Origin: an uncultured Opitutales bacterium
GTDB lineage: Bacteria; Verrucomicrobiota; Verrucomicrobiia; Opitutales; Seribacteraceae
Direction: 5' to 3'
Length of the DNA stretch: 64,000 nucleotides
NCBI GenBank assembly: GCA_905478775.1
Contig: CAJQKB010000057.1
Coordinates: 1-64,000, forward strand
Shown one piece after another: positions 11,512-29,152 of this stretch (the first letter of the stretch is position 1; each line of letters starts with the position of its first letter). A program made the position numbers and the translations under genes. The notes beneath the pieces were generated by a model, which saw only the letters and a list, made by a program, of their open reading frames with translations, did no database searches and was not told the DNA's origin.

Positions 11512-12750
11512 TCAGGTGGCGGGGATTGCGTCTAGTCGTTTTTTACTTTCAATGGCCCATTTTGAACCCTTGTAAAAAATGGAGACCTGTTTGTAGACAT
11601 TGATTGCCGCCTCATTTAAACTTAATTTTTCATAGGCTCCACCCGCCATCAAAAGGGATTCCGGAAGCCAATCTAGACCGACGCGGGCACTCACAATTCC
11701 TTCGGTTACTTCCAAAACAGACTGACGATAAAATTCAGCGGCTTTCAATTCGTTCCCGCTTTGCTCGTATTGACGTGCGTACTGAACACGCAAGAGAGCA
11801 CGAATCAGTTTATAAAGAGAGTATTCATTTGTTTGCCGAGCGGGTGGTTTTTCGTCTAACTTTTTAACCGTCTGCATCGCAGTATTAAATATTTTACCGG
11901 CCGCTGCTTTATACCGTGCATCCTTTAATGCTGCCTTGGAATAGGTTTCGTATAATTTAATATAACAATAAATCGGCCAAATTTCGACTATCTTGGCATG
12001 GGGACTTCCCGGAGACTTTTGTACGATTGGTCCCAACCGGGCGTATTCAGAAATTGCATCGTTATACAAACCCTGGGTTCGTAGCGAATCGGCAAGTTTT
12101 AAATAAGAGGCATGATCAGCACTATTGTTTCGAATCGTTACTTTTTGCAAAAGAGCACGGGCAATCTTGGCAGATTTTGAGTTGGCTCGAATCATTTTAC
12201 TGGCGAGTTCAAGTGACGCTTCCGAGAAATCTCGGTATCCGTAACTGTCCAACTTATTTAAGTTTAGACGTGATAATAAATAAAACGCTTCATTATACTG
12301 CTCCATGGCAATTAATGCTTTTACATAGATCAAGCAATTATCATGGATGGCAAAGTATTGCTGGGGTATATCAAGAAAGAGCATTACTTTATACATAATT
12401 GGTCTTAAACTTGGCAGAAGTTCTTTGCTGTACTGTTCGTTAGAAAATGCTTGAAGAGTTTTCATCGCACCCTGTGGCCAAGCAAATGAAAAACCTTGAA
12501 TATTCTGTTTCTTCAATCCGCGAAGTTCCAGTTGCATCCTTCCCGCACCGTCCATGGAGGCATAAATAATGCCTTTCTGCCCATCCACCCCTAAGAGAGT
12601 GCCAGCCTTTGCTGCATTTCCAACAAATATCTTAACCGGTAATGCACCCGAATGGATCTTAAAGTAGTCCTGATTGGCTTGAGCGCACAAATTAATGTGA
12701 CCGAAATAAAAGCTGAACAAGACTGTAATACAAGTTAAATACTTACTCAT
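11512..12750 (-). CDS. Exported TPR-type repeat protein of the ExbB/ExbD cluster
   Basis: This 412-residue protein has a signal peptide (residues 1-24, ending NLCAQA). It then has a small beta-rich N-terminal part (LPVKIFVGNAAKAGTLLGVDG...IIYASMDG), and from about residue 110 helical repeats of TPR style (YNEAFYLLSRL, LYNDAISEYARLG, KAAEFYRQSVLEV, LNEAAINVYKQVSIFYKGS). Its ATG overlaps the TGA of the preceding gene in an ATGA junction, so the two are translationally coupled. It sits immediately upstream of exbB. I recognise no characterised orthologue; a periplasmic scaffold in an ExbB/ExbD-driven complex is inference. Confidence 0.82.
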   Translation of the reverse strand: MSKYLTCITVLFSFYFGHINLCAQANQDYFKIHSGALPVKIFVGNAAKAGTLLGVDGQKGIIYASMDGAGRMQLELRGLKKQNIQGFSFAWPQGAMKTLQAFSNEQYSKELLPSLRPIMYKVMLFLDIPQQYFAIHDNCLIYVKALIAMEQYNEAFYLLSRLNLNKLDSYGYRDFSEASLELASKMIRANSKSAKIARALLQKVTIRNNSADHASYLKLADSLRTQGLYNDAISEYARLGPIVQKSPGSPHAKIVEIWPIYCYIKLYETYSKAALKDARYKAAAGKIFNTAMQTVKKLDEKPPARQTNEYSLYKLIRALLRVQYARQYEQSGNELKAAEFYRQSVLEVTEGIVSARVGLDWLPESLLMAGGAYEKLSLNEAAINVYKQVSIFYKGSKWAIESKKRLDAIPAT

Positions 12751-14897
12751 TTAAGAAACTTTCTCTGCCAATCAACATACTGTTTTTCCACTTGAGTAAT
12801 TTGATCAGATTGCCCGGTTTGTTCGTAACAACGAATTGCTTGTTCGTAGGATTTGGAAGCCCACTTTGTTGCACTTGGAAAGTTAAGGGTTGTGTCCAGG
12901 TAATAATATGCTGCACCAGCATGATCGCGAATGGCGCGTTTGCACTCCCCCATCATGTAGGAGGATTGAGCTCTCTGCTCGAGGCTGGTATCGGTATCGC
13001 TTCTTACTTCCTCGAAAGAGGAAACCGCCTGGTCAAAGAGACTGGAATCTTTACTGGACTGCCCCACTTCAAAAAGAGATTCACCCAGGCGAATCCGAGC
13101 ATCGTTGGCGTTATCATGCCAGGATGAATTAGCAAGTGCAGATTGATAATGGGAGACAGAACTCTGGTAGTCCCGCTCCTTTTGCTTTGCTTGTCCCAAG
13201 AGGTAGTAAGCATCAAAAAGAAATTCGCCACCCGTATCTCCGTATACATTTACAAGGCGCTCCATCGCAGATACCGCATCCTCCACCGAGTTTTGGGCAA
13301 GTAATTGTTCGGCCATCCAAACGAGAACACCTGGACTTGCCGCAGGGAAGTCACTCTTTTGCGGATTATAACTCCCACCCGCTTTTGAACCAACCCGATC
13401 GAGCATTGAACGCATGCGCAATTCAAGTGGTCTGTTCCCTGCTGACTTTGCCTGTTCCAATAATTTTGCAAAGGCAACGGCAGGAGATAGATCCGACGGA
13501 AATCCCTTTTTAAATTCTTTGTATTTCTTTAAATAACCCTTAAATTTTGCCATATGAGAAGGGTTTGAAAAGATTGCTCCTCGGGATTTCACCACATCGC
13601 TATAAATATCCTGATCCATGCCCTTGTATTGAGAGGAAAGAAATGGCAGCAATTTTTTACGATCTCCAATTATATCCTCAACCGTTCCAGTAATCGTTTC
13701 TTCAATTCCCTTCCTGTCACGATAGGTGAATGAAATGGTTTGCCCGGGTTCTTGTAGCTTTGTAAGAAGATCTAAAGTTCTTCCGTATAATTTATCGTAT
13801 TCATCGTACTTAACGGTGTATTTTTTAAGGATAGCATCGACGCCTACATTACTAGGATCGTTGCCGTACTTTTCAATATCCTTATAATAAAGATTAAGCA
13901 TGGTAGAGGGACGACCTAGCATTTCATTGGCAAATCCAATTTTTTCAGTAGCTTCTGAAATTCTAGCCCCTTCTGAATCACTAAATTTTTCTGAATAGTC
14001 CGAGTATAATTTCACCATGCTTGAATAATAAACATAGGAGGCAACATCATAAAGTTCACCGAAATCGATGGACTTATCTTCATTCAAATCAAAATCGGCA
14101 AAAGATTTATCGGATTCAATTCCGATGGTAGAATATTCACTTGATTGCAATACTTCGTCTTTATTTTTGTCAAACGTAAGGTAATTTTCCACGATCCCGT
14201 CCGGATTTTCTGCCACTCGCTCGATCAGACCGCCTTCATTAAATGTGGCATCTGTAATTAATTTAATTTCCCGTGACTTTTCCCGAACCAATGAATAATT
14301 GGCCTGGGCATTTTGTATTTGTTCGTAGGAAGGTTGCTCGTCAGATTTTACATCGCTGATAGCCAAGTCACCCAAGCTCAGGTATGCCTCGGGGACCATT
14401 TTGTCTTCCGGGAAGTCTTTCACAAACTGTTGGAAAAGCCTAATTGCATTTGGGTTATCAGTGGAACCCTGATACGCGACTGCAAGGCGAAATAACGCAT
14501 CTTTGGCAAACTCATCGTCCGGGAAATGACGGGCTTTCCCCCCATCGCTCCATTTATCATTAATCGATTCTTTTCCGGACGAGACTATTTTTCCTCCCCC
14601 TGACTTATCGGAAATTTTCCAGATTGAACCATTAAACCACATGAAAAAGCCTTCGCCATTTACAAAAACAGGCTTTCCATTCTTTTCCTCTCCGTTTGGT
14701 AGGTAAACCCCATTTGGATTCGGCAGCACTATGACCTCCTCCTCGACCTCTTCGACTACGGGAGTCTTTTCAGGTTTTACTTCGGGTGCAGTTGTGTCTG
14801 TGGTAGCTTCAGAAACCGATTCAGTCTCATCGCCACCGCAGGAAACCAAGAAAAAAGAGAGAGGAAAGAGAAAGAAGATACGGTATATTTTATTCAT
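12747..14897 (-). CDS. TPR lipoprotein with an EF-hand pair
   Basis: The 716-residue lipoprotein has lipobox FFLVSC (Cys20) followed by a long Glu/Val/Pro-rich linker (25-60). TPR repeats cover about 110-180 (HFPDDEFAKDALFRLAVAYQ, NAIRLFQQFVKDFPED) and about 520-710. Between them lie two canonical EF-hand loops at 243-254 (D-K-N-K-D...E) and 270-281 (D-L-N-E-D...E). The C-terminal repeats resemble YbgF/BamD-type TPRs used on the inner face of the outer membrane. Its ATG overlaps the upstream stop codon (TAATG) and its own stop overlaps the next start (ATGA). This tight coupling ties it to the ExbB/ExbD genes. Confidence 0.85.
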   Translation of the reverse strand: MNKIYRIFFLFPLSFFLVSCGGDETESVSEATTDTTAPEVKPEKTPVVEEVEEEVIVLPNPNGVYLPNGEEKNGKPVFVNGEGFFMWFNGSIWKISDKSGGGKIVSSGKESINDKWSDGGKARHFPDDEFAKDALFRLAVAYQGSTDNPNAIRLFQQFVKDFPEDKMVPEAYLSLGDLAISDVKSDEQPSYEQIQNAQANYSLVREKSREIKLITDATFNEGGLIERVAENPDGIVENYLTFDKNKDEVLQSSEYSTIGIESDKSFADFDLNEDKSIDFGELYDVASYVYYSSMVKLYSDYSEKFSDSEGARISEATEKIGFANEMLGRPSTMLNLYYKDIEKYGNDPSNVGVDAILKKYTVKYDEYDKLYGRTLDLLTKLQEPGQTISFTYRDRKGIEETITGTVEDIIGDRKKLLPFLSSQYKGMDQDIYSDVVKSRGAIFSNPSHMAKFKGYLKKYKEFKKGFPSDLSPAVAFAKLLEQAKSAGNRPLELRMRSMLDRVGSKAGGSYNPQKSDFPAASPGVLVWMAEQLLAQNSVEDAVSAMERLVNVYGDTGGEFLFDAYYLLGQAKQKERDYQSSVSHYQSALANSSWHDNANDARIRLGESLFEVGQSSKDSSLFDQAVSSFEEVRSDTDTSLEQRAQSSYMMGECKRAIRDHAGAAYYYLDTTLNFPSATKWASKSYEQAIRCYEQTGQSDQITQVEKQYVDWQRKFLK

Positions 14898-16768: not shown

Positions 16769-17743
16769 TCATGTGCAGCAAGGGCATTGAAGTACAAAAT
16801 GACCTGTAGAAACTTCTTCCATGTCTAATTTTTTTCCAACACTTTCAGGATAAAGAGATGAACCCACACGATGCCCAAAAGCACAGCCTGATGGAGGGTT
16901 GATGGGGGAGGGAACATCTCCCGGAATAATCACTCTCTTCCTTTTTTTGGTGGGGTCCGGGATCGGAATAGCCGAAATAAGTGCCTTCGTATAGGCGTGT
17001 GCCGGCTTTAAGTAAATCTCTTCCGCAGGCCCAATCTCAACGATCTTTCCCAAATACATGACCGCAATTATATCGGATACATGCTTTACAACCGCTAAAT
17101 CATGAGCAATCAAAAGGTAGGTCAATCCAAGCTTAGATTGAAGATCCATGAGCAAATTAAGAACTTGGCTCTGCACGGATACATCTAATGCAGAAACTGG
17201 TTCGTCGAGGACTAAAAGTTCGGGCTGCAGAGCCAAAGCACGGGCGATTCCAATTCTCTGCCTCTGTCCGCCCGAAAATTCAAACGGATATCGATTTGCT
17301 GCGCTTCTAGATAAGCCAACCTGTTCGAGTAACTCCGCCACCCTTTCAGAACGAACATTTTTTTCGACTATATGATGAATATCCAAAGGTTCCTCCAATA
17401 TTGCACCCACGGTCATGCGGGAATTGAGAGATTCTGCTGGATCCTGAAAAACCATTTGCACATTTTTACGAAAATTATTTTGAGCCTTTTTTCCCGCTAT
17501 TTCCTGGTTTTTAAATTTGATCGAGCCAGAAGTGGGTTCAACCAATTTTACCACGGACTTGGCCAAGGTCGATTTCCCGCAACCGGATTCACCCACCAGT
17601 CCGAGTGTCTGCCCTTTTTGTAATACCAAGCTTACCCGGTCTACTGCCTTACATGATCCGACTGCTCTGCGAAAAATCCCTCCCCGGACGGGGAAGTGAA
17701 CACGAAGGTCTGTAATTTTTAGTAATTCCTCGGGTGCATTCAT
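16769..17743 (-). CDS. oppF: Oligopeptide/dipeptide ABC transporter ATPase, OppF type
   Basis: I choose ATG 17743 (MNAPEELLKITDLRVHFP) because it overlaps the TGA of oppD in an ATGA junction; a longer frame from 17776 would run back into oppD. The 324-residue protein has Walker A GESGCGKST, signature [15 protein letters not shown], Walker B LLVLDEPVSALD and an H-loop AHDLAVV. A C-terminal oligopeptide-type extension has PSPINPPSGCAFGHR and ends near cysteines (LQCPCC), as in OppD/OppF proteins that carry an Fe-S cluster. It pairs with OppD to power the minus-strand peptide transporter and is the last gene of that operon. Confidence 0.93.
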   Translation of the reverse strand: MNAPEELLKITDLRVHFPVRGGIFRRAVGSCKAVDRVSLVLQKGQTLGLVGESGCGKSTLAKSVVKLVEPTSGSIKFKNQEIAGKKAQNNFRKNVQMVFQDPAESLNSRMTVGAILEEPLDIHHIVEKNVRSERVAELLEQVGLSRSAANRYPFEFSGGQRQRIGIARALALQPELLVLDEPVSALDVSVQSQVLNLLMDLQSKLGLTYLLIAHDLAVVKHVSDIIAVMYLGKIVEIGPAEEIYLKPAHAYTKALISAIPIPDPTKKRKRVIIPGDVPSPINPPSGCAFGHRVGSSLYPESVGKKLDMEEVSTGHFVLQCPCCT

Positions 17744-18726
17744 AAATTCGAACATAGGGGACAAGATTCCACCCAATGCCCTTCCGTGACTTCCTGCAAG
17801 GGCGACCTTTGATCAAGCAGGGCCTGTGGATGTACTTTTCCACTCCGTGGAGCAAAACGACAACCTTGGTTTAAGTCAGAAAGACCGGGAACCATGCCAT
17901 CGATTGTGGAAAGTTCAGTCTTGGGTATTCTATCCAATCGCGGGATCGAGGAAAGTAAGCCACGGGTGTAGGCATGTCTTGGATTGGCAAAGAGTTCGAC
18001 TGTGGATGCTCGTTCGACTATCCGACCTGCATACATCACACAAACCTCATCGCAAGTTTCGGCAATAACCCCAAGATCGTGGGTAATTAATAAAACGGAA
18101 GACCCCAGTTGTTTTTGCAAAGTTTGCAGAAGTTCAAGAATTTGAGCCTGTACCGTAACATCTAATGCAGTGGTGGGTTCATCTGCGATGACGAGCTTTG
18201 GTCTGCATGCCAACGCCATGGCAATCACAACTCGTTGTCTCATTCCGCCCGAAAGTTGGTGGGGATATTCGAAGGCCCGGCTATCGGATGCTGGGATTCC
18301 CACATCATGGAGCATTTCTACTGATTTGAACCAGGCTTCTTTTACTCCAATTTCTTGATGTAATAAAAAGACCTCACTCAATTGATCGCCTATTGTCCGA
18401 ACCGGATTTAATGCATTCATCGGTTCCTGGAAAATCATGCCGATCTCATTTCCTCGAACCTGCCTCATTCCATCTGCAGATAATTCCAATAAATCTTTCC
18501 CCTGAAAATGGATTCTGCCGGATGTTATTTTACCCACGGGCTTGGGCAATAAGCGCATAATGGACAGAGCGGTTACACTCTTCCCACATCCTGATTCTCC
18601 AACCAGGCCAAGAGTTTGTCCGAGCCCGACCTGAAAATCAACTGAATCAAGTGCCTGCACGCGTCCCTCGTCCGTCTCAAAAGAAACCGAAAGCCCTTTT
18701 ATATCAAGCAATATATCAGTTTCCAT
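17740..18726 (-). CDS. oppD: Oligopeptide/dipeptide ABC transporter ATPase, OppD type
   Basis: The 328 residues contain Walker A GESGCGKSVTALS, the OppD-style signature [15 protein letters not shown], Walker [13 protein letters not shown] and H-loop ITHDLGVI. The C-terminal oligopeptide extension is DLNQGCRFAPRSG ... CPLC, with the cysteine pattern of this subfamily. It follows the solute-binding lipoprotein gene by 26 bases and couples to oppF by an ATGA overlap. Together they hydrolyse ATP for import through the OppB/OppC-like permeases encoded upstream. Confidence 0.94.
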   Translation of the reverse strand: METDILLDIKGLSVSFETDEGRVQALDSVDFQVGLGQTLGLVGESGCGKSVTALSIMRLLPKPVGKITSGRIHFQGKDLLELSADGMRQVRGNEIGMIFQEPMNALNPVRTIGDQLSEVFLLHQEIGVKEAWFKSVEMLHDVGIPASDSRAFEYPHQLSGGMRQRVVIAMALACRPKLVIADEPTTALDVTVQAQILELLQTLQKQLGSSVLLITHDLGVIAETCDEVCVMYAGRIVERASTVELFANPRHAYTRGLLSSIPRLDRIPKTELSTIDGMVPGLSDLNQGCRFAPRSGKVHPQALLDQRSPLQEVTEGHWVESCPLCSNL

Positions 18727-18752
18727 TCAGCCTACCTTTTCGCATTTGGATA

Positions 18753-20966
18753 TCAATTGGACTGGTACTTATCATAAATCCGAACGGTCGGTTGATCCGA
18801 TAGAACCTCGCCTGCCAATTTAGCCTTGAGAATCGTTTTCTTTTCGGACTGATCGATCCAAAAAACCTGAAATTCTTCATAATCACGGGTTTCTTTTGGT
18901 CCCCAGTCCTGAGGAAACTTAATCCAATTCCAGTGACCAATCCTAATCCATGGTTTTTTCCAGGCTGGAACCCAAACCCCATGTTCATGGATCATTTCAC
19001 TGAGTTGATGGGATAATTCTGTAATTCTTTCAAGGCTTTCCTCCTCCCGATATTGATTAATTAGATGATCAATTTCACGCACTGCAGTTTGCGTAAAATT
19101 ATTGGTGCTAGTCTTGATTACTAAGTTATCCTTTAATCGACCATCCTTACGATATTTCGTATCCCCATCCTGCTGATACGCATTATCGGAATGGAAGGGT
19201 TCCCAATATCGGGGGAACAGTTCCACAAAAGAATTAAAGGCGGAGAAAATAACTTGGTGATTCTTTTCCCCCGCGGTCTTCCATGCAGCCGTACTCTCGA
19301 GAATTTTGAGCTTTATTTCCAAGCCTGCCTTCTTGGCCTCTTCTTTAAGCACAACCAATACATCCTCGAAATGCTTATAGCCCGTTACTATTTCAACCGA
19401 CAATCTTTCACCTTTTTTATTAACCAGTATTCCGTCTGGGCCACGCTTTAAATATCCGGCCTTTGCAAAGTGTTCGACTGCTTTCTCCACCGAAAAAGTA
19501 CGGGCCTGCAAGGTGGGGTGCGAGCGGGCTCCATATCCATCTGCCACGGTGTTCATCCTAACATAATCTCCCCGGAAGATCTTTTCCAAAACAAGCTTAA
19601 AGTTCATTGCATGGTGAAAGCCAATTCGAATGTTTTGGTTATCTAAAGGCGCTTTTTGCGAATTAATTCTCAACGCATAAGAGGGGGGTGGAGTTTGATT
19701 AAAAAAAGTGACTTTTGATAAATATCCGTTCTTCACTAATAGATTCTTGTCGGTTAACTTTTCATACCAGAACTCCGTTTTTGCTAAACCGAACATATCA
19801 ATCTCGCCCTTTAGAAAAATTTCAAATGCTTTGTTATAATCACGCACTACGCTTACCTTGATCTTGTCTGGATTAAAACGGTATCGATAGAATTTTTTCT
19901 GATCTGCCCACCAATCATTTTGCCGGACGAGAGTGACTGATTTCCCCTTATCTATATTCTCGGGGGTTGCCACATAAGGCCCTGTGGTAGGCTCGGGAAG
20001 CCACTGATATTTATTCAAATACTCACCATCTAACTCACCATAAAAATGTTCCGGAACAGGACGAAGGGATACCCGCTCAACCACATCAGGTTTTGCTTTA
20101 TAATAAGTGATTGAAAAGGTATGGCTATCAAAGAGAGTAACCTTGAGAAATTTATCCTTCCCAAAAAAATCATTATACCATGGAGCCTGGATATGTTTAC
20201 TTCGCATGTAATAAAACAAAAAGAAAAAATCACTGGAACGAACTGCTTTCCCATCACTGTACCGTGCATCAGGATCCAACCGGAAATAAACCGTCTTGCG
20301 ATCATCCGCAACCGCCCACGAACTGGCTAACCCGCGATAATATCCGTCCGAATTGGGGTGAGACATCACTAAACTCAGGGCATTATAATCTGACAAATAA
20401 CTTCGAAAGGCCCCATTTGCATCGGGTCCAATCGTTCGTAGCGTCCTCGGAAAATCTCTCATGAAAACATTCCAAGTGCCTCCCCTTTTTGCGTCCGGTG
20501 AGGAGAATTCTTCTTCTCCCAAACCGTCTTTCCAATTTAAACCAGCAGGAATTTCCTGGAGGGATTTAATAGCAAAACAATCCGCATGACTTTGATAAAA
20601 TTCCAGAACATCTTCTGAACAATGAGCTAGTAATGGATGGGGGCGGCCATCCATGTCCACTAATGAACCCGGATCTCGATCAATCTGAACAGAGTTTGCT
20701 GAAAAAACAGAATCCAGTTGAATCGATGAGTTTCCTTCATTTAATTGCCTGCTCAATTCTCGGGCAAATTCCCTCCCTAGCTCCCGGGCCAGTTCACGAG
20801 CAAATTCACGATCCACTGGCAGACCACTTTCTCCAGTTTGCCTGGAAGGCTCGCTTCCAGACTCGCGGGGTGGTTTAAGTTGATGGTCTTCGCAGCCATT
20901 AAAAAACAACAGGCTCACGAAAAAAAAAGCGGTATAGTAAATCTTATTAATTTTCATATTATTCAT
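18753..20966 (-). CDS. oppA: Peptide ABC transporter solute-binding lipoprotein (SBP family 5)
   Basis: The start at 20966 (MNNMKINKIYY) is preferred over one at 21017 because the longer form has no signal sequence at its front and overlaps the permease. A lipoprotein signal ends at lipobox FFNGC. A short Arg/Glu repeat stretch (FARELARELGREFAREL) then links to a family 5 binding domain (GTWNVFMRDFPRTLRTIGPD, DARYSDGKAVRSSDFFFLFYYMRS, NIRIGFHHAMNFKLVLEKIFRGDY). At about 737 residues it is larger than OppA (~540). Gene order here is permease, permease, binding protein, ATPase, ATPase. The ligand may be a peptide or another small solute. Confidence 0.9.
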   Translation of the reverse strand: MNNMKINKIYYTAFFFVSLLFFNGCEDHQLKPPRESGSEPSRQTGESGLPVDREFARELARELGREFARELSRQLNEGNSSIQLDSVFSANSVQIDRDPGSLVDMDGRPHPLLAHCSEDVLEFYQSHADCFAIKSLQEIPAGLNWKDGLGEEEFSSPDAKRGGTWNVFMRDFPRTLRTIGPDANGAFRSYLSDYNALSLVMSHPNSDGYYRGLASSWAVADDRKTVYFRLDPDARYSDGKAVRSSDFFFLFYYMRSKHIQAPWYNDFFGKDKFLKVTLFDSHTFSITYYKAKPDVVERVSLRPVPEHFYGELDGEYLNKYQWLPEPTTGPYVATPENIDKGKSVTLVRQNDWWADQKKFYRYRFNPDKIKVSVVRDYNKAFEIFLKGEIDMFGLAKTEFWYEKLTDKNLLVKNGYLSKVTFFNQTPPPSYALRINSQKAPLDNQNIRIGFHHAMNFKLVLEKIFRGDYVRMNTVADGYGARSHPTLQARTFSVEKAVEHFAKAGYLKRGPDGILVNKKGERLSVEIVTGYKHFEDVLVVLKEEAKKAGLEIKLKILESTAAWKTAGEKNHQVIFSAFNSFVELFPRYWEPFHSDNAYQQDGDTKYRKDGRLKDNLVIKTSTNNFTQTAVREIDHLINQYREEESLERITELSHQLSEMIHEHGVWVPAWKKPWIRIGHWNWIKFPQDWGPKETRDYEEFQVFWIDQSEKKTILKAKLAGEVLSDQPTVRIYDKYQSN

Positions 20967-22038
20967 AAGTTGAGAATTTCTTGGGATCGAATGCTTCCCG
21001 CACTGCCTCCCCCACAAAAGTGACCAGGGTTAATGTAAGCACCAATATTGAAACTGAGGAAATTACGATCCATGGAGCAATGCGGAGATTATTCACACCC
21101 TGCTTCAGAAGTTCCCCCCAACTGGGAGTTGGAGGAGGCAAACCATAGCCAAGAAAATCCAAGGCGGTAATGGAGGAAACCGCGGCCGCAATTGTAAAGG
21201 GGGCAAAAGTGACCAGGGTGGAAATCACATTGGGTAAAAGATGGCGAAAAATAATTCTGGCTGAACTCGCCCCAATTACCTTGGCCGCAGAGACGTAATC
21301 CCTGGCCTTTTCTTTATACACCGCCGCTCGAATGTAGTATGTCATTCCAGTCCATGAAAAAAGGACCATAATGAGTAATAGAGAGGAAACTTGCCAACCA
21401 GTGCCCCACCAACTCGGCATTACAGAAACCAAGATAATTACCATGTATAAAAAAGGAACATTTGCCCAAATTTCAACCAGTCGTAATCCAAGCATATCTG
21501 TCCTTCCACCAAAGTATCCCATTATACTACCCGCACAAATTGCGATGAGATAAGTTAACAGTAAATACCCCAGAGAAAAAGTCATCGCGATACGAAAGCC
21601 ATAAAGCAACCTAGCAAATACATCCCGTTCCGTTTTGTCAGTTCCGCAAAAATGCCCGGAAGAAAAACTCGGTGGTGAAAATCCAGTGGAAGATTCTTTG
21701 GCATAATCCATCTCATAGGGGCCAAAGGGAACGATTGGCATAAGTAACCAATCGTTGGAATTTTCTTTTTCAAATTTCTTTTGGAGGTCCCGGTAATTCG
21801 TTTCATATTCATAATCAAAACCAAAAAATTTTCCGCTAATCTGTTCGCCGTAGGTGGGAAAGAAAAATTCTCCTTGGTAAGAAACAATCAAGGCCCGTTT
21901 ATTCACAAATAATTCTCCCAAGAGACTGAGGCTATAAAGCAATACCAAGAAAATAAAAGACCAATACCCACGCTTAATCGAACGAAAGCGACGAAGCTTC
22001 TTGGTGGTCAATGGATTCAATTTAATCATGGTTTTCAT
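20959..22038 (-). CDS. oppC: Peptide ABC transporter permease, OppC/DppC type
   Basis: The 359-residue permease begins with a cytoplasmic tail and TM1 (YWSFIFLVLLYSLSLLGELFVN). It then has a longer-than-usual extracytoplasmic segment up to SGHFCGTDKTERDVFARLLYG, the OppC-type GTD..GRD region. The binding-protein-dependent transport EAA loop reads AAKVIGASSARIIFRHLLPNV. It overlaps the preceding oppB gene by ATGA and the next gene by eight bases. It forms the membrane channel with OppB. Confidence 0.93.
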   Translation of the reverse strand: MKTMIKLNPLTTKKLRRFRSIKRGYWSFIFLVLLYSLSLLGELFVNKRALIVSYQGEFFFPTYGEQISGKFFGFDYEYETNYRDLQKKFEKENSNDWLLMPIVPFGPYEMDYAKESSTGFSPPSFSSGHFCGTDKTERDVFARLLYGFRIAMTFSLGYLLLTYLIAICAGSIMGYFGGRTDMLGLRLVEIWANVPFLYMVIILVSVMPSWWGTGWQVSSLLLIMVLFSWTGMTYYIRAAVYKEKARDYVSAAKVIGASSARIIFRHLLPNVISTLVTFAPFTIAAAVSSITALDFLGYGLPPPTPSWGELLKQGVNNLRIAPWIVISSVSILVLTLTLVTFVGEAVREAFDPKKFSTYE

Positions 22039-23459
22039 TCGAAACGGACACGGGGGTCCACCATCGCCACTAAGGCATCCGACAGGATGTTCCCCAAAAG
22101 CATAAGAGTCGCAGAAAGAGTAAGTACTCCCATAACTACAGGATAATCCCGATCGATTACCGAGTTAAAACCCAACAGCCCAAAGCCATCAATATCGAAA
22201 ATAGTTTCAATTAAGAAGGAACCCGTTACGAATAATGTCACTTGGTGCCCCACATTGGTTGCTAAGGGGACCAATGAATTTCGCAGAGCATGTTTGCGGA
22301 CGGCATTACCAAATGAGACACCCTTCGCCATTGCGGTTCGAACATAATCTGCAGATAAATTGTCCATCAGGTGATTTTTCATCATCATCGTAACGAATGC
22401 AAAGCCACCAATCAAATAGCAGCATAATGGTTGAAAACTATGTTCCGCTAAGTCTTTTAATTGTTCGAACATCGACAATTGTTCATGGTTTTCACTCACT
22501 AAGCCCCCCATAGGCAACCAATCCAACTTTACAGAAAAAAATAGCAGTAAAAGAGAACCCAGCGCATAACCTGGAACGGCATAGCCCACAAAGATCAGAA
22601 TCGAAGACAGATCGTCATAGAGCGTGTTATGCCGAACCGCCTTAAAAATCCCCAAGGGAATACAGACTGCATAGGTAAGAAGAAAAGTCAGAAGTCCAAA
22701 ATAGGTTGATACTGGTAATCGCTCCGCGATAACATGAAGAACCGGTTCACCAAAACGGGTTGATTGACCAAAATTTCCTTGCAGAACGCCTTCATGTTGA
22801 GTCATGAAAAGCTCCGCCACCGGAACCGCATTTGATTGATCTGGGCTTCGTTCCTTCATTCGAACGTTCCAATTTCCCAATAATTCGGAAAGATTCACAA
22901 TCGTGACTCCACCCAACCGATCTCTTTTCAGGATTACCTTTTCCCGAGCCCCCTGAATAATCGAATTTGGTTTATTGATTTCTTCATTATCTAATTCGTT
23001 GTCCTGGTTTTGATCCAAGCTATTAAAATTAATATATTTTAAAATAGTGGGAGGTACCTCGTCACGTTGTAAATATCCATCCCTATCCCAATCCAATTGA
23101 GCAAGTGGGAAACTGGGCAAACTTACCCGTTCAGATAATTCCAATTCGTCTCCCAAAAAGCGAATCTGGCGAAATTCAGTTTCTCTTGGCAAAATGCCAA
23201 GCCAGATCAAATAGGCCTGCCAATGAGGTTTATCAAAACCGTATAATCGTTTCATTTGTTCCAATTGCTCTCGGGAAAGTGCTTGATTTGAACCAGAACT
23301 CCGTCCCCCACCCCCTTCTTCAGAAACTTGTTGCATTTGCATCATTGCCTGTTCGAGCGGACCGCCGGGCGCCAGTCTGGTAATCGCAAAGACCATAATG
23401 CTGATTCCGAGAAGAGTCGGAGGAATCAATAATAGCCTTCTGATAAAATAATCTCGCAT
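22035..23459 (-). CDS. oppB: OppB-type permease with an inserted EF-hand pair
   Basis: The 474-residue protein is about 150 residues longer than OppB/DppB. TM1 (8-30) and the family motif ITRLAPGGPLEQA are normal. A Gly/Ser-rich and charged region follows, then two EF-hand loops: 123-134 (D-W-D-R-D-G-Y-L-Q-R-D-E, fully canonical) and 149-160 (D-Q-N-Q-D-N-E-L-D-N-E-E). The typical permease resumes at about 225 (GVLQGNFGQSTRFGEPVLHVIAERLP), with the EAA loop TAMAKGVSFGNAVRKHALRN. The insertion falls in the first extracytoplasmic loop and would lie in the periplasm, so calcium may influence docking of the binding protein. It is the first gene of its operon. Confidence 0.92.
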   Translation of the reverse strand: MRDYFIRRLLLIPPTLLGISIMVFAITRLAPGGPLEQAMMQMQQVSEEGGGGRSSGSNQALSREQLEQMKRLYGFDKPHWQAYLIWLGILPRETEFRQIRFLGDELELSERVSLPSFPLAQLDWDRDGYLQRDEVPPTILKYINFNSLDQNQDNELDNEEINKPNSIIQGAREKVILKRDRLGGVTIVNLSELLGNWNVRMKERSPDQSNAVPVAELFMTQHEGVLQGNFGQSTRFGEPVLHVIAERLPVSTYFGLLTFLLTYAVCIPLGIFKAVRHNTLYDDLSSILIFVGYAVPGYALGSLLLLFFSVKLDWLPMGGLVSENHEQLSMFEQLKDLAEHSFQPLCCYLIGGFAFVTMMMKNHLMDNLSADYVRTAMAKGVSFGNAVRKHALRNSLVPLATNVGHQVTLFVTGSFLIETIFDIDGFGLLGFNSVIDRDYPVVMGVLTLSATLMLLGNILSDALVAMVDPRVRFE

Positions 23460-23631: not shown

Positions 23632-25530
23632 ATTCGGGTTCTCTTTTGCCTTCTGCTGGTATCATGCGGAGAAACTAGCAGTGTGGACGATGCCTCCCGT
23701 AAGGGAATACTAATCATGGGAAATAGTGGCGAACCCAAGGGATTGGATCCCCATATCGTGAGCGGAGTTCTCGAAAGCAATATTATCCGTTCACTTTTTG
23801 AAGGACTGGTCGAAGCGCATCCTTCCAAAGATGGAATTGCGATGCCCGGAGTCGCGGAAAAATGGTATCCCGTTGACCCTGCTCGACCGGATGAATGGAT
23901 CTTCGAACTTCGCAAGGATGCCCAATGGTCGGATGGAGAACCTCTTACCGCGGAGGATTTTCTTTTTTCCTTTCGCCGCCTACTCACCCCTGCCCTCGCC
24001 TCGGACTATTCTTTCATGCTTTATTACATTAAAGATGCCGAATTCTATCATAAGTCCCAGCGTTCCTACCTGCTTTTCCGTAAAGACGCCAACTTTACTG
24101 AAGATTGGTGGTCAACCTTCAAAAATGTGGACTTCGGCCCGAATGAAAAAGCGGAGGAAAATTCTTTCAATTTTATTGGTCTCGATAAATTGACTCTAAC
24201 TAATTTAGAAAATCTACTGGAAAATCCTTCGCTTTTTTTATGGCCAAAGAATCTTTCTCCAGAGATTCGACGATCCCTCATCATGAAAAACCTGAATTTT
24301 GAAAAAGGGGATCGGGGTCAATTAAAAAAAGATGAGTTAAAGGATTTATGGAAATTAATTGAATTGGGTGCCACCGCCCCGGACATGCACACCTTGAGGG
24401 TAAAACTCAATTCACCCATTCCATTTTTACCCGAGATCACTAAACACTATACTTGGTACCCCGTGCCTAAGCATATTGTTCTGAAGCACGGCACTATTGG
24501 AGAACGGTTCACTTCTTGGACTAAACCCGAAAACCTGGTTGGAAACGGAGCCTTCATCCTAAAATCGTGGAGATTCAATGACCATATTGAAGTGAGCCGT
24601 AACCAACATTATTGGGACAAAAGTAATGTCGGTCTCAACGGTATCCGGTTCCTCCCCATCGGCAATCTCTACACGGAAGACCGAATGTATTTTGACGGTC
24701 AGATGCATGTGACCTACAGCATTGCATCCGAACTAATTGAATACTCCCGAAAAAAATATCCAGAACATGTCCGTAGTGAACTTTATCTGGGCACTTATTT
24801 TATTAGAACCAATGTTTCCAATAAACCATTTACAGACCCCCGGGTACGACTTGCCTTCTCCTACTCGCTCAACCAGAAATCACTTATTGATAATGTCCTT
24901 AAAGGAGGACAGAAGCCGGCCAGTGGACTGGTTCCTCCCTTCGGAAATTACCCTGCCTCTGACACCGTGACATTTGACCCGGAACTGGCCCGTAAGTTAT
25001 TGGCCGAAGCAGGATATCCAGGCGGCAAGGGGTTACCTGATATTGAATTTCTTACTACGGATAAGGAATCTTCAAAGGTTACTGCAGAGGCATTACAGGC
25101 TATGTGGAAGGAACACCTCGGAGCCACGATCAAGATCAAGCAAATGGAATGGACTTCCTATATTACCGCGATGTTTGCAAAGGACTACGACCTTGCCGCT
25201 GGTGGCTGGATTGGTGATTACATGGACCCACTCACTTTTCTCGATATGTGGATGAAAGGGGTAGGAAATAACCGCACAGGTTGGCATAATGAAGAATTTG
25301 AGGACATCCTGGGCATGGCTGCCCAGACGGGAGAGGCGGCCAAGCGATACGAACTGCTCGCTCAAGCCGAAGCACTTTTTCTTGGTGAGCGGCCTATACT
25401 CCCGGTCTATTGGTATACACGCAATTATCTTCTTCACCCTGATGTAAAAGGATGGAATCCCCTTCTTCTCGATAATCATCCGTACAAGTTTTTACGCTTG
25501 CAACCGGGTGCCAACAATAGAAAGGACTGA
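23632..25530 (+). CDS. oppA: Peptide ABC transporter solute-binding lipoprotein (SBP family 5), probable AUU start
   Basis: No ATG, GTG or TTG in frame would include a signal peptide; the first standard start is GTG 23683, inside the mature part. Upstream codons in frame read (ATT)RVLFCLLLVSC, a near-ideal lipoprotein signal. The ATT at 23632 lies seven bases after an AGGAG, so I place the start there (632 residues). The rest is a family 5 binding protein: GEPKGLDPHIVSGVLESNII, DAQWSDGEPLTAEDFLFSFRR, NKPFTDPRVRLAFSYSLNQK. An insert near residues 155-255 carries a degenerate EF-hand-like loop (EKGDRGQLKKDE). The permeases and ATPase follow directly. Confidence 0.88.
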   Translation: MRVLFCLLLVSCGETSSVDDASRKGILIMGNSGEPKGLDPHIVSGVLESNIIRSLFEGLVEAHPSKDGIAMPGVAEKWYPVDPARPDEWIFELRKDAQWSDGEPLTAEDFLFSFRRLLTPALASDYSFMLYYIKDAEFYHKSQRSYLLFRKDANFTEDWWSTFKNVDFGPNEKAEENSFNFIGLDKLTLTNLENLLENPSLFLWPKNLSPEIRRSLIMKNLNFEKGDRGQLKKDELKDLWKLIELGATAPDMHTLRVKLNSPIPFLPEITKHYTWYPVPKHIVLKHGTIGERFTSWTKPENLVGNGAFILKSWRFNDHIEVSRNQHYWDKSNVGLNGIRFLPIGNLYTEDRMYFDGQMHVTYSIASELIEYSRKKYPEHVRSELYLGTYFIRTNVSNKPFTDPRVRLAFSYSLNQKSLIDNVLKGGQKPASGLVPPFGNYPASDTVTFDPELARKLLAEAGYPGGKGLPDIEFLTTDKESSKVTAEALQAMWKEHLGATIKIKQMEWTSYITAMFAKDYDLAAGGWIGDYMDPLTFLDMWMKGVGNNRTGWHNEEFEDILGMAAQTGEAAKRYELLAQAEALFLGERPILPVYWYTRNYLLHPDVKGWNPLLLDNHPYKFLRLQPGANNRKD

Positions 25531-25534
25531 ACTA

Positions 25535-26464
25535 ATGCTCCGCTTTCTAATCGGTCGGGTACTGCAAGGATTTCTTGTTCTTTTCGCTCTTTATACCATT
25601 ACCTTTTTTCTGGCCAAGGCCATGCCAGGGGAACCTTTTACATCCGAAAAAAATATATCTGCGGAAACGAAAGCAAACATACGCAAACTTTATGGATTGG
25701 ATAAACCGATCTGGGAACAATACATAGTCTATCCAAAAAATATAATAACGGAGGGTTCATTCGGGATTTCAACGAGTAAAGGAAGGCCAGTAATTGATAT
25801 TATTGCCCAGTCTTTTCCTAATTCATTAATGCTTGGCCTATGTGCTCTTGGCTTCGCAATCGGAATAGGTGTGCCGATCGGCATACTTTCAGCAGTTCGG
25901 AAAAACAGCTGGATAGACTGGTCGTGCATGGCGGTGGCAATGATTGGCATTTGCATCCCCTCATTTACAATCGGCCCGCTCTTGCAAATCTATGTGGCGG
26001 CCCATATTCCCGGACTGAAGGTGGCCGGTTGGGGAAACTGGGAGGACATCCTTCTGCCCGCCTTTACCTTGGGACTAGTCTCCGCCGCTTACCTTGCCCG
26101 CCTGACCCGGGGAGGCATTCTTGAAGTCCTGTCCCAGGACTTCGTTCGAACGGCACATGCAAAAGGGGTGTCTCCAACCCAAGTAATCCTTAAGCACACA
26201 CTGAGGGGTGGCCTTCTCCCGGCAGTTGCCTACCTTGGACCGGCTTTCGCTGCCTTGATCAGTGGTTCGTTTATCGTAGAGACCATTTTTCAAGTTCCGG
26301 GAATGGGACAGCACTTTGTAAATGCAGCCACTACAAGAGATGAGTTTCTTCTCTTAGGCCTGTCACTATTCTTCGGTTTGCTCATTGTGGTAATGAATCT
26401 TCTCGCCGATCTGCTCACCGGATTATTGGACCCTCGCATGAGACAAAGCGGAGGGACCGATTAG
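25535..26464 (+). CDS. oppB: Peptide ABC transporter permease, OppB/DppB type
   Basis: ATG 25535 (MLRFLIGRVLQGFLVL) starts four bases after the binding-protein stop; the alternative at 25508 would overlap that gene and precede TM1 with a charged tail. The 309-residue protein has normal OppB length. Motifs include TITFFLAKAMPGEPF, KLYGLDKPIWEQY and the EAA loop TAHAKGVSPTQVILKHTLRG. Unlike the divergent minus-strand OppB it has no EF-hand insertion, a useful internal control. It forms the channel with the next gene's product. Confidence 0.94.
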   Translation: MLRFLIGRVLQGFLVLFALYTITFFLAKAMPGEPFTSEKNISAETKANIRKLYGLDKPIWEQYIVYPKNIITEGSFGISTSKGRPVIDIIAQSFPNSLMLGLCALGFAIGIGVPIGILSAVRKNSWIDWSCMAVAMIGICIPSFTIGPLLQIYVAAHIPGLKVAGWGNWEDILLPAFTLGLVSAAYLARLTRGGILEVLSQDFVRTAHAKGVSPTQVILKHTLRGGLLPAVAYLGPAFAALISGSFIVETIFQVPGMGQHFVNAATTRDEFLLLGLSLFFGLLIVVMNLLADLLTGLLDPRMRQSGGTD

Positions 26465-26468
26465 AGAC

Positions 26469-27413
26469 ATGACTAATCAAGATCAAGCGAATCCTCAAGG
26501 TTCCTCTCTTTGGAAGGATGCCCGGGCCCGCATGGCGAAAAATAGATTCGCGATGGGGGGACTCTGGATAATCATCCTTATGTTCTCACTCTGTTTTATT
26601 TTCGCATGGTTTTGTACAGACCCTAACCAGGTCAACCTCATCAATAAGTTTGCCTCTCCTTCGCTGGATCATTGGTTTGGAACCGATGCTCTCGGGCGCG
26701 ATCTATTTGCCCGCATTCTCTACGGCGGACAGGTTTCCATTCTCGTTGGCTTAATCGCCACAGCCGTTTCCGTTGCCATCGGAATCGTTTATGGAGCTGT
26801 TTCAGGTTTCGCAGGGGGAAGAACGGATGCAATCATGATGCGCGTAGTGGATACATTGCTTGCCATACCCTTCCTGGTTCTCGTTATCGTACTACAGGCA
26901 ACATTAAGTGACTGGTCTGGGGATGCCACCCGATGGATCGTGGAAAATTTCAAATGGGATAAAGAATTCACGGGACGGTTAACCAATGTAATTCCGCTCT
27001 TCTTCGCCCTCGGTCTACTAGGCTGGCTTACCCTGTCCCGAATCGTGCGAGCCCAGGTGATGAGCATTAAGGAACGCGAATTCGTGGAAGCAGCAGTGGC
27101 ACTGGGATACGGAAAAGCTCGTATTCTTTTTCGACATATTATTCCAAATGTTCTTGGTCCCACAGTTGTCTACTCCACCCTTACCGTTCCAGGCTTCATC
27201 ATGTATGAAGCAATTCTCTCATTTCTCGGATTGGGAGTGGAATCACCAAATAGTTCGTGGGGCGTTCTAATCAAAGAGGGTTCCAATTTTTTGGAAACTG
27301 AAGTTCAACTTCTTCTTTTACCAGGTCTATTCTTTTCCCTCACTCTCTTTTCCCTTAATTTCCTAGGAGATGGACTTCGGGATGCACTGGATGTAAAAGC
27401 TGCCAAAGACTAA
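26469..27413 (+). CDS. oppC: Peptide ABC transporter permease, OppC/DppC type
   Basis: The 314-residue permease has TM1 (FAMGGLWIIILMFSLCFIFAWF), then the OppC hallmark HWFGTDALGRDLFARILYGGQ, and the EAA loop AAVALGYGKARILFRHIIPNV. It follows oppB by four bases and overlaps the next ATPase gene by a TAATG junction, so the operon is translationally coupled. Confidence 0.95.
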   Translation: MTNQDQANPQGSSLWKDARARMAKNRFAMGGLWIIILMFSLCFIFAWFCTDPNQVNLINKFASPSLDHWFGTDALGRDLFARILYGGQVSILVGLIATAVSVAIGIVYGAVSGFAGGRTDAIMMRVVDTLLAIPFLVLVIVLQATLSDWSGDATRWIVENFKWDKEFTGRLTNVIPLFFALGLLGWLTLSRIVRAQVMSIKEREFVEAAVALGYGKARILFRHIIPNVLGPTVVYSTLTVPGFIMYEAILSFLGLGVESPNSSWGVLIKEGSNFLETEVQLLLLPGLFFSLTLFSLNFLGDGLRDALDVKAAKD

Positions 27414-29152
27414 TGAGTTTGCTTAAAATAAAAAATCTGAAAACTTATTTCCACACCCGTGCGGGCACGAACCGGGCAGTGGACGATGTCAGTTTCTCGA
27501 TTAATAAAGGAGAAATCGTAGGGGTGGTGGGAGAATCGGGTTCAGGAAAGTCGGTCACTTGCCATACCTTACTTGGACTTCTGCCCCAACCCCCCGCAAG
27601 GGTGGAAGGTGGAACTGTAACCTTTGATGGTGGAGAACTCCTTACCCTCTCCCATTTACGCCTCAGAGAGATCAGAGGGAAGCGGATATCAATGATCTTT
27701 CAAGATCCCATGAGCTGTCTGAACCCGTACTTGAAAATTATTGATCAAGTAACCGAACCCATTCTCATTCATGAGCATGTCTCACGACAAACTGCAGAGG
27801 CGCGTGCGATTGAGATGATGAAAAAAGTCGGGATAAGAGATGCCGAATTAAGAGCCCACTCCTACCCTCACGAATTTTCCGGCGGTATGCGACAACGAGT
27901 CATGATTGCCATGGCATTGGTTACCAAACCCGATCTTTTATTGGCAGATGAACCAACCACCGCACTCGATGTAACCGTACAAGCCCGTATCCTGAAGATC
28001 CTTCACGACCTGAAAGATGACCTCGGAATTGCAGTGCTCTTCGTAACCCATGACCTTGGTGTAGTCGCTGACATTGCCGACCGGGTAGTGGTAATGTACC
28101 GCGGTAAGATTGTCGAACAAGGGAATACCCGTGATATCTTTGAAAAACCATCCCATCCCTACGTAAAAGGACTTCTTGCCTGTAGACCCACTCTAGAAAC
28201 CCAATATCAAACCCTTCCCACCGTGGACGATTTTCTTCAGTCGGAAGTCGGAGCGGACGGTTCTTTTATTCTCAGTGAACGGACGGATGCAAAAAAACGA
28301 CTGGCAGGGCTTCAAAAACAACTAAAATGTGAAATTTCGGACAAGGATATCCCGACCACTCTACTACAAGTTAAAGACCTAAAAGTACACTTTCACTCCG
28401 GAGGTGGATTCCTGGGAAAACCCCGCAGGACGATTAAAGCAGTCGACGGAGTCGACCTAACAATTGCAAAAGGTCAAACCCTTGGACTGGTCGGAGAATC
28501 CGGATGCGGAAAAACCACCCTCGGGCGGGCCATACTGCGCCTGCAAGAATCAAAATCTGGCTCAGTCCTCTACGATGAAAATGAGCTCACCTCTCTGAAC
28601 CGGTCCGAAATGCTCGGGTTTCGAAAGAGGATGCAGATCATATTTCAGGACCCTTATGCTTCCCTTAATCCTCGCCAAACGATCGAACAAACACTCATCG
28701 AACCAATGCTCGTTCACAAAATTGGTTCCAATCATTCGGAAAGACGGGATCGAATAGTTTCTCTCCTGGAGGAGGTTGGCCTTGGGTCCAATTTCCTTCT
28801 TCGATATCCGCACGAGTTTTCGGGGGGACAAAGGCAACGAATTAGCGTAGCCAGAGCACTGGCAGTGGAGCCGGAATTCATTGTCTGTGATGAATGCGTC
28901 AGTGCCATGGATGTTTCTGTGCAGGCACAGGTACTTAATTTACTTCGTGAATTGCAGCAAAAAAGAAACCTTACCTATCTCTTTATTTCCCATGACCTCA
29001 GCGTAGTAAAATTTATGTCCGATGACATGATTGTGATGAAAAATGGACAGGTAATGGAAAGCGGCAATGCAGAAGAGATCTACAAAAATCCTCGATCCGA
29101 ATACACCCGTGAATTATTGGATGCGATTCCCAAATCGACTCTTTCCGGCTAG
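27413..29152 (+). CDS. oppDF: Fused OppD-OppF double ABC ATPase
   Basis: The 579-residue protein contains two complete ABC ATPase modules. Module 1 has [39 protein letters not shown] and THDLGVV. Module 2 (from about residue 320) has [40 protein letters not shown] and SHDLSVV. The first resembles OppD and the second OppF, so one chain replaces the two subunits of the minus-strand operon. The Walker B of the second half reads CDEC instead of the usual LDEP, but the catalytic Asp-Glu is kept. Fused forms of this kind are known in peptide and glutathione importers (GsiA, YejF). It is the last gene of the operon. Confidence 0.95.

Follow-up and report, generated by a model that had tools for sequence, protein, structure and literature searches.

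The Yej systems described elsewhere import microcin C, peptide antibiotics or muropeptides. These importers dock a substrate-binding protein (SBP) on the outer face of the permease and, in DppB, the docking site is a scoop (residues 32-62) that links TM1 with helix alpha3 and, in the pre-catalytic state, lies in the binding-protein cleft (PMC12136057). The calcium sites described for ABC importers in the literature that we found lie in the binding proteins and not in the permeases. For example, SBPs of the AlgQ2 type contact the ABC transporter through an EF-like calcium site (PMC5717064). In the presence of Ca2+, the EF domain of the SLC25 carriers APC1-3 binds an amphipathic helix, and the carrier APC4 has neither of the two (PMC7611780). 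In lanmodulin, a single proline lowers the calcium affinity (PMC11848957). An EF-hand ABC permease was not found described in the open-access literature.

Here we describe an EF-bearing permease from an uncultured Opitutales bacterium, encoded in a contiguous DNA stretch of 64,000 nucleotides (hereafter, the window). The EF pair of this protein is real, conserved and unusual. Furthermore, the pair co-occurs with a predicted helix in the linker of the cognate SBP; both this co-occurrence and the linker helix are new here.

A Yej-like importer with an enlarged permease

The locus (Table 1) is, as judged from its sequence, a YejBE-like importer of the peptide type. YejB is the best NCBIfam model for the 474-residue permease (NF011712, 240 bits, not reaching the cut-off of 445), and the YejE-like partner also scores under its curated cut-off. 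The original prediction labeled the permease as OppB-type, which is imprecise, as the protein is closest to YejB. It carries the PF00528 domain and a DppB-like fold (Foldseek against DppB: same fold, E 5e-9). The operon has the gene order B-E-A-D-F, also present in gammaproteobacterial and verrucomicrobial relatives, and the SBP gene sits two genes downstream of the EF permease. Counted from a TTG codon, the SBP lipoprotein has 754 residues; its true start is probably the ATG at 20957.

Table 1. Features of the importer operon in the window (residue numbers refer to the encoded protein)
Feature	Positions	Strand	Support
YejB-like ABC importer permease, 474 aa	22035..23459	minus	BPD_transp_1 E 9.7e-33
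Region equivalent to DppB scoop motif, conserved, permease residues 30-62	23274..23372	minus	phmmer alignment to DppB
Inserted periplasmic domain, permease residues 88-223 (~136 residues)	22791..23198	minus	DppB alignment
EF-hand loop 1, permease residues 123-134, DWDRDGYLQRDE	23058..23093	minus	
EF-hand loop 2, permease residues 149-160, DQNQDNELDNEE	22980..23015	minus	
YejE-like permease, 359 aa	20959..22038	minus	NF011596 267.7 bits, cut-off 439
Cognate substrate-binding lipoprotein (SBP_bac_5)	18753..21017	minus	PF00496 E 1.9e-44; lipobox FFNGC
Predicted amphipathic helix DREFARELARELGREFARELSRQLN, SBP linker residues 69-93 (25 residues)	20739..20813	minus	
DppD/OppD-type ATPase	17740..18726	minus	
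DppF/OppF-type ATPase	16769..17776	minus	

The operon (16769-23459, minus strand) lies back to back with a second peptide-importer operon (23683-29152, plus strand), with an intergenic region of ~220 bp between them. This divergent layout is retained in most EF-bearing relatives of the window's family. The neighboring plus-strand OppB (25508-26464, 318 aa) is without an insert, as had been noted originally. Genes downstream of the importer include several TPR proteins and a MotA/TolQ/ExbB homologue. One of the TPR proteins (12750-14897, minus strand) has a single EF-like loop, DLNEDKSIDFGE, at residue 270.

Position and fold of the periplasmic insert

Alignment with phmmer matched permease residues 3-87 to E. 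coli DppB 3-70 and residues 224-473 to DppB 72-337, and the insert falls between the positions equivalent to DppB 70 and 72. The predicted enlargement of the permease is borne out as a real insert, although it adds ~135 residues over relatives of 340 aa rather than ~150. Taken together with the position of the DppB scoop, the alignment places the insert directly after alpha3, on the periplasmic face where the SBP docks. By analogy to the topology of DppB, the insert would occupy the first periplasmic loop.

An AF2 model of the full-length permease was weak (pLDDT 62.7) and too uncertain in the membrane part, so we folded the insert on its own, which gave a confident model (residues 86-224, 139 residues; pLDDT 86.5, pTM 0.72). 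The model has two strands followed by the EF pair and then four strands, forming a beta domain in which a single loop holds the EF pair. The DSSP strands at 129-131 and 155-157 are short and fall at positions 7-9 of each loop, where canonical EF pairs also have them. Helices flank the EF loops in the model, each of only about 3-4 residues. A Foldseek search of the composite insert domain against the PDB returned no significant match.

Sequence and conservation of the EF-hand loops

The two loops start 26 residues apart and both fit the 12-residue EF pattern, which calls for acidic ligands at positions 1, 3, 5 and 12, a glycine near position 6 and a hydrophobic residue at position 8. Shuffling the residues of the insert yielded at least one EF loop in 0.7% of the shuffles and two loops in 0.0015% (1.5e-5). 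Among all the ORFs of at least 100 aa in the window, the strict pattern recurs in one further loop only. The ligands are also conserved. In loop 1 of 27 EF-bearing sequences, D1, D5, G6 and E12 are invariant and position 3 is D or N; in loop 2, D1, D9 and E12 are invariant and N3 and D5 are present in 26 of the 27. The ten ligand positions have a mean entropy of 0.21 bits versus 1.31 for the whole insert (permutation p 4e-5), and the non-ligand positions of the loops average 1.38 bits. Conservation extends beyond the ligands to W124 (invariant) and Y129 (one Phe), which, from sequence, may form a contact surface.

Pfam EF-hand matches to the window permease alone were sub-threshold. The same models match 25-28 of 33 aligned inserts, with the best E-value (1.6e-7) in relatives. 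Profile searches matched the EF pair to solved proteins, namely two lanmodulins (6e-6 and 1e-5) and SCaMC-1 (1e-3). The module is very probably a true calcium-binding EF pair. This agrees with the original prediction of two EF loops across 22980-23093: their exact positions, the shuffles and the ligand entropy are all in accord with it. The prediction that they form a genuine pair in the first periplasmic loop also held, as seen in the conserved ligands, the Pfam matches of relatives, the profile matches and the EF-type pairing in the model of the insert.

Elsewhere in the genome, the sole EF-hand_5 match over the cut-off is a sulfatase-like protein with a C-terminal EF pair (L089:1166-2818, minus strand), a possible source of such EF modules.

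Distribution and history of the insert

We identified a match to the permease in 38 of the 42 genomes of the window's family. Of these, 26 are EF-bearing, another eight carry a distinct, EF-less insert of ~115 residues, and four apparently have no insert (three of them were read over their full length). In a second family (f26), 8 of 20 genomes have an EF-bearing permease and four others an EF-less insert of ~88 residues. Neither of the two outcomes named as refuting the original prediction arose: the EF-bearing relatives keep the insert with its ligands conserved, and the modeled loops pair in EF fashion. Among the other genomes of the class, the permeases that were read either lack the insert or have it without EF-hands, and a profile of the insert matched only the window's own genome in a phylum sample of 388 genomes. 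The EF pair was found in two Verrucomicrobiota families. Some relatives have the beta domain without the EF pair and many YejB relatives have neither.

In a tree of the permease core, a sequence with an EF-less beta insert (L032) is sister to the window clade, and EF-less f26 sequences lie beside both. Grouping the EF-bearing permeases in a single clade was mildly rejected (AU p 0.024), so a single gain with neither loss nor transfer afterwards is not proposed here. The EF pair is a second-level module, set within an insert that is itself more widely distributed, and has since been lost or transferred. Because the Akkermansiaceae-type insert could not be reliably aligned to that of the window, we consider homology of their beta domains likely and nothing firmer. 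Permeases with no insert, with a beta insert and with a beta insert plus EF pair show that, in Verrucomicrobiota, the periplasmic loops of permeases have grown module by module.

Other parts of these importers are enlarged as well. EF-bearing f26 permeases (L171:4536-6206, minus strand, and L094-L096) have, in a later loop, a second insert (NVSAG...HGLSNGEEVWLEGQLP...YYAEVVDANSFRL) that is ~80-90 residues long and without a Pfam match. Four operons with an EF-less, Akkermansiaceae-type YejB (L182, L183, L184 and L187) encode a YejE of 532-563 aa versus 359 in the window, which suggests that it also carries a large insert.

A conserved predicted helix in the linker of the binding protein

Alignment of the SBPs revealed that, in EF-bearing operons, the linker that connects the lipid anchor to the folded SBP body has an additional run of (R/K)E(F/L)A tetrads, (REFA)n. 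The run is amphipathic, as judged also from computed hydrophobic moments, and is predicted to be helical by its pattern alone. All 23 EF-bearing operons of the window clade with a readable SBP have the helix motif, with scores of 17-22 of 24, and L070 scores 20. So do all seven EF-bearing f26 genomes with an SBP (15-20 of 24), including a genus (g145) where the helix is degenerate (15-16). EF-less operons score at most 13 of 24, even those that retain the beta insert (L032 and L034-L037). The helix is a conserved island in the EF-bearing SBPs, with an entropy of 1.0 bits versus 2.05 and 2.71 in the flanking linkers, and a search of the genome for a second copy of the motif found none.

The presence of the EF pair and of the linker helix was discordant in none of 45 tree rows. 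The original prediction had linked the insert to the enlarged binding lipoprotein, and this exceptionless co-occurrence supports the link in a more specific form than was claimed. However, there are just two contrasts for the coupling that are phylogenetically independent (sign test p 0.5), so shared operon history could explain the co-occurrence. Its presence in all the relatives examined suggests a calcium-loaded clasp that joins permease and SBP.

The SBP of one of the EF-less operons (L184, 3326-5482) has an EF-like loop of its own, DGDENGSLDKNE, at residue 80 in the N-terminal region.

A candidate calcium clasp and alternative roles

We tentatively favor a model in which the EF pair, displayed on the periplasmic beta-scaffold domain of the permease, would bind two Ca2+ and serve as a constitutive clasp rather than a switch. 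The SBP is lipid-anchored through a long linker, and the loaded pair would grip the conserved, amphipathic (REFA)n helix of that linker, holding the SBP next to the scoop motif, its docking site for peptide delivery. Near-invariant EF ligands in an insert that otherwise drifts, the location of the insert beside the scoop and the co-occurrence of helix and EF pair are consistent with this model. So are the loop strands in the model of the insert, the profile matches to lanmodulin and SCaMC-1, and the standing of the helix as a conserved island unique in the genome. The nearest precedent for the mechanism is that of the SLC25 ATP-Mg/Pi carriers (PMC7611780), and AlgQ2 offers one for contact between SBP and permease through calcium (PMC5717064). 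The small number of independent contrasts, the degenerate helix of g145, the short helices flanking the EF loops, the poor full-length model and the lack of a Foldseek match for the insert weigh against it. If the EF pair does hold the tether helix, it would provide a Gram-negative cell with a way to retain a lipoprotein SBP at its own channel. The grip is directly testable with the 139-residue domain and the 25-residue peptide.

The calcium could also be purely structural, the loaded pair only stiffening an insert that contacts the folded body of the SBP. The linker helix would then serve another purpose, either self-association or membrane-surface binding. The marine setting, the AF2 model, in which the EF pair forms an excursion from the beta domain, and the contact between the AlgQ2-type site and its ABC transporter (PMC5717064) are consistent with such a role. 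We consider it doubtful though credible, because it leaves unexplained why the helix tracks the EF pair exactly, even against relatives that have the beta domain alone. The original prediction went further and proposed that calcium gates docking, and canonical EF loops and the precedent of the SCaMC carriers are in line with periplasmic Ca2+ changes controlling docking and transport. Yet we found no sensor evidence, and the sample names of relatives point to a marine origin. Porins let the periplasm equilibrate with seawater, where Ca2+ is close to 10 mM, and such millimolar levels are far above the usual Kd of EF-hands. A periplasm that sees seawater calcium is expected to keep the site permanently loaded, which makes calcium gating the less likely outcome and, in our view, an improbable one.

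Two further readings concern the nature of the site itself. Lanmodulin is the best solved-structure match and has a similarly short loop spacing (26 residues here versus 24 in the aligned lanmodulin stretch, a two-residue gap), as a site for lanthanides or another metal would have it. The proline that lowers calcium affinity in lanmodulin occupies loop position 2. This position is a tryptophan in loop 1 and mostly Q, R, H or T in loop 2, without the proline; the permease has two loops rather than four; and the genome encodes no PQQ alcohol dehydrogenase over the cut-off. After checking loop position 2 and the PQQ dehydrogenases we set this reading aside as very unlikely. Chance or vestigial DxDxDG motifs without an EF fold would account for the sub-threshold Pfam scores of the window protein alone, and are strongly disfavored, to the point of being scarcely credible, by the shuffles, the ligand conservation, the Pfam matches in relatives (down to 1.6e-7) and the AF2 model.

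Comparison with known systems

YejABEF and YejBEF-YepA provide the best NCBIfam matches of both permeases and share with the window locus a peptide-type SBP and ATPases. The window locus differs in having two separate ATPase genes where YejABEF has the fused double ATPase YejF, in its B-E-A-D-F gene order, and in the additional EF insert and long, helix-bearing SBP tether. E. coli DppABCDF has the same permease fold and an equivalent scoop region, but its DppB is without an insert between residues 70 and 72. Among calcium sites of ABC importers, the cluster G SBPs (AlgQ2, FusA and Smon0123 types) come closest with an EF-hand-like site, which in AlgQ2 touches the permease. However, theirs is a single EF-like loop in the SBP, whereas the window system has a pair in the permease. 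Lanmodulins have the closest solved EF sequences and a short loop spacing like that of the window pair, but are free soluble proteins with four loops and a proline that lowers calcium affinity, rather than a permease with two loops.

The combination proposed here, EF-hands and an amphipathic helix on a transporter, resembles that of the SLC25 carriers (SCaMC/APC1-3 and AGC), and the EF-less SLC25 paralogue is also without the helix, paralleling the EF-less operons. The carriers are unrelated transporters in which a regulatory EF domain and the helix belong to one chain, whereas here they reside in two proteins. By this likeness, the EF clasp and tether helix could possibly be a two-protein analogue of the binding of calmodulin to its targets or of SCaMC to its helix.
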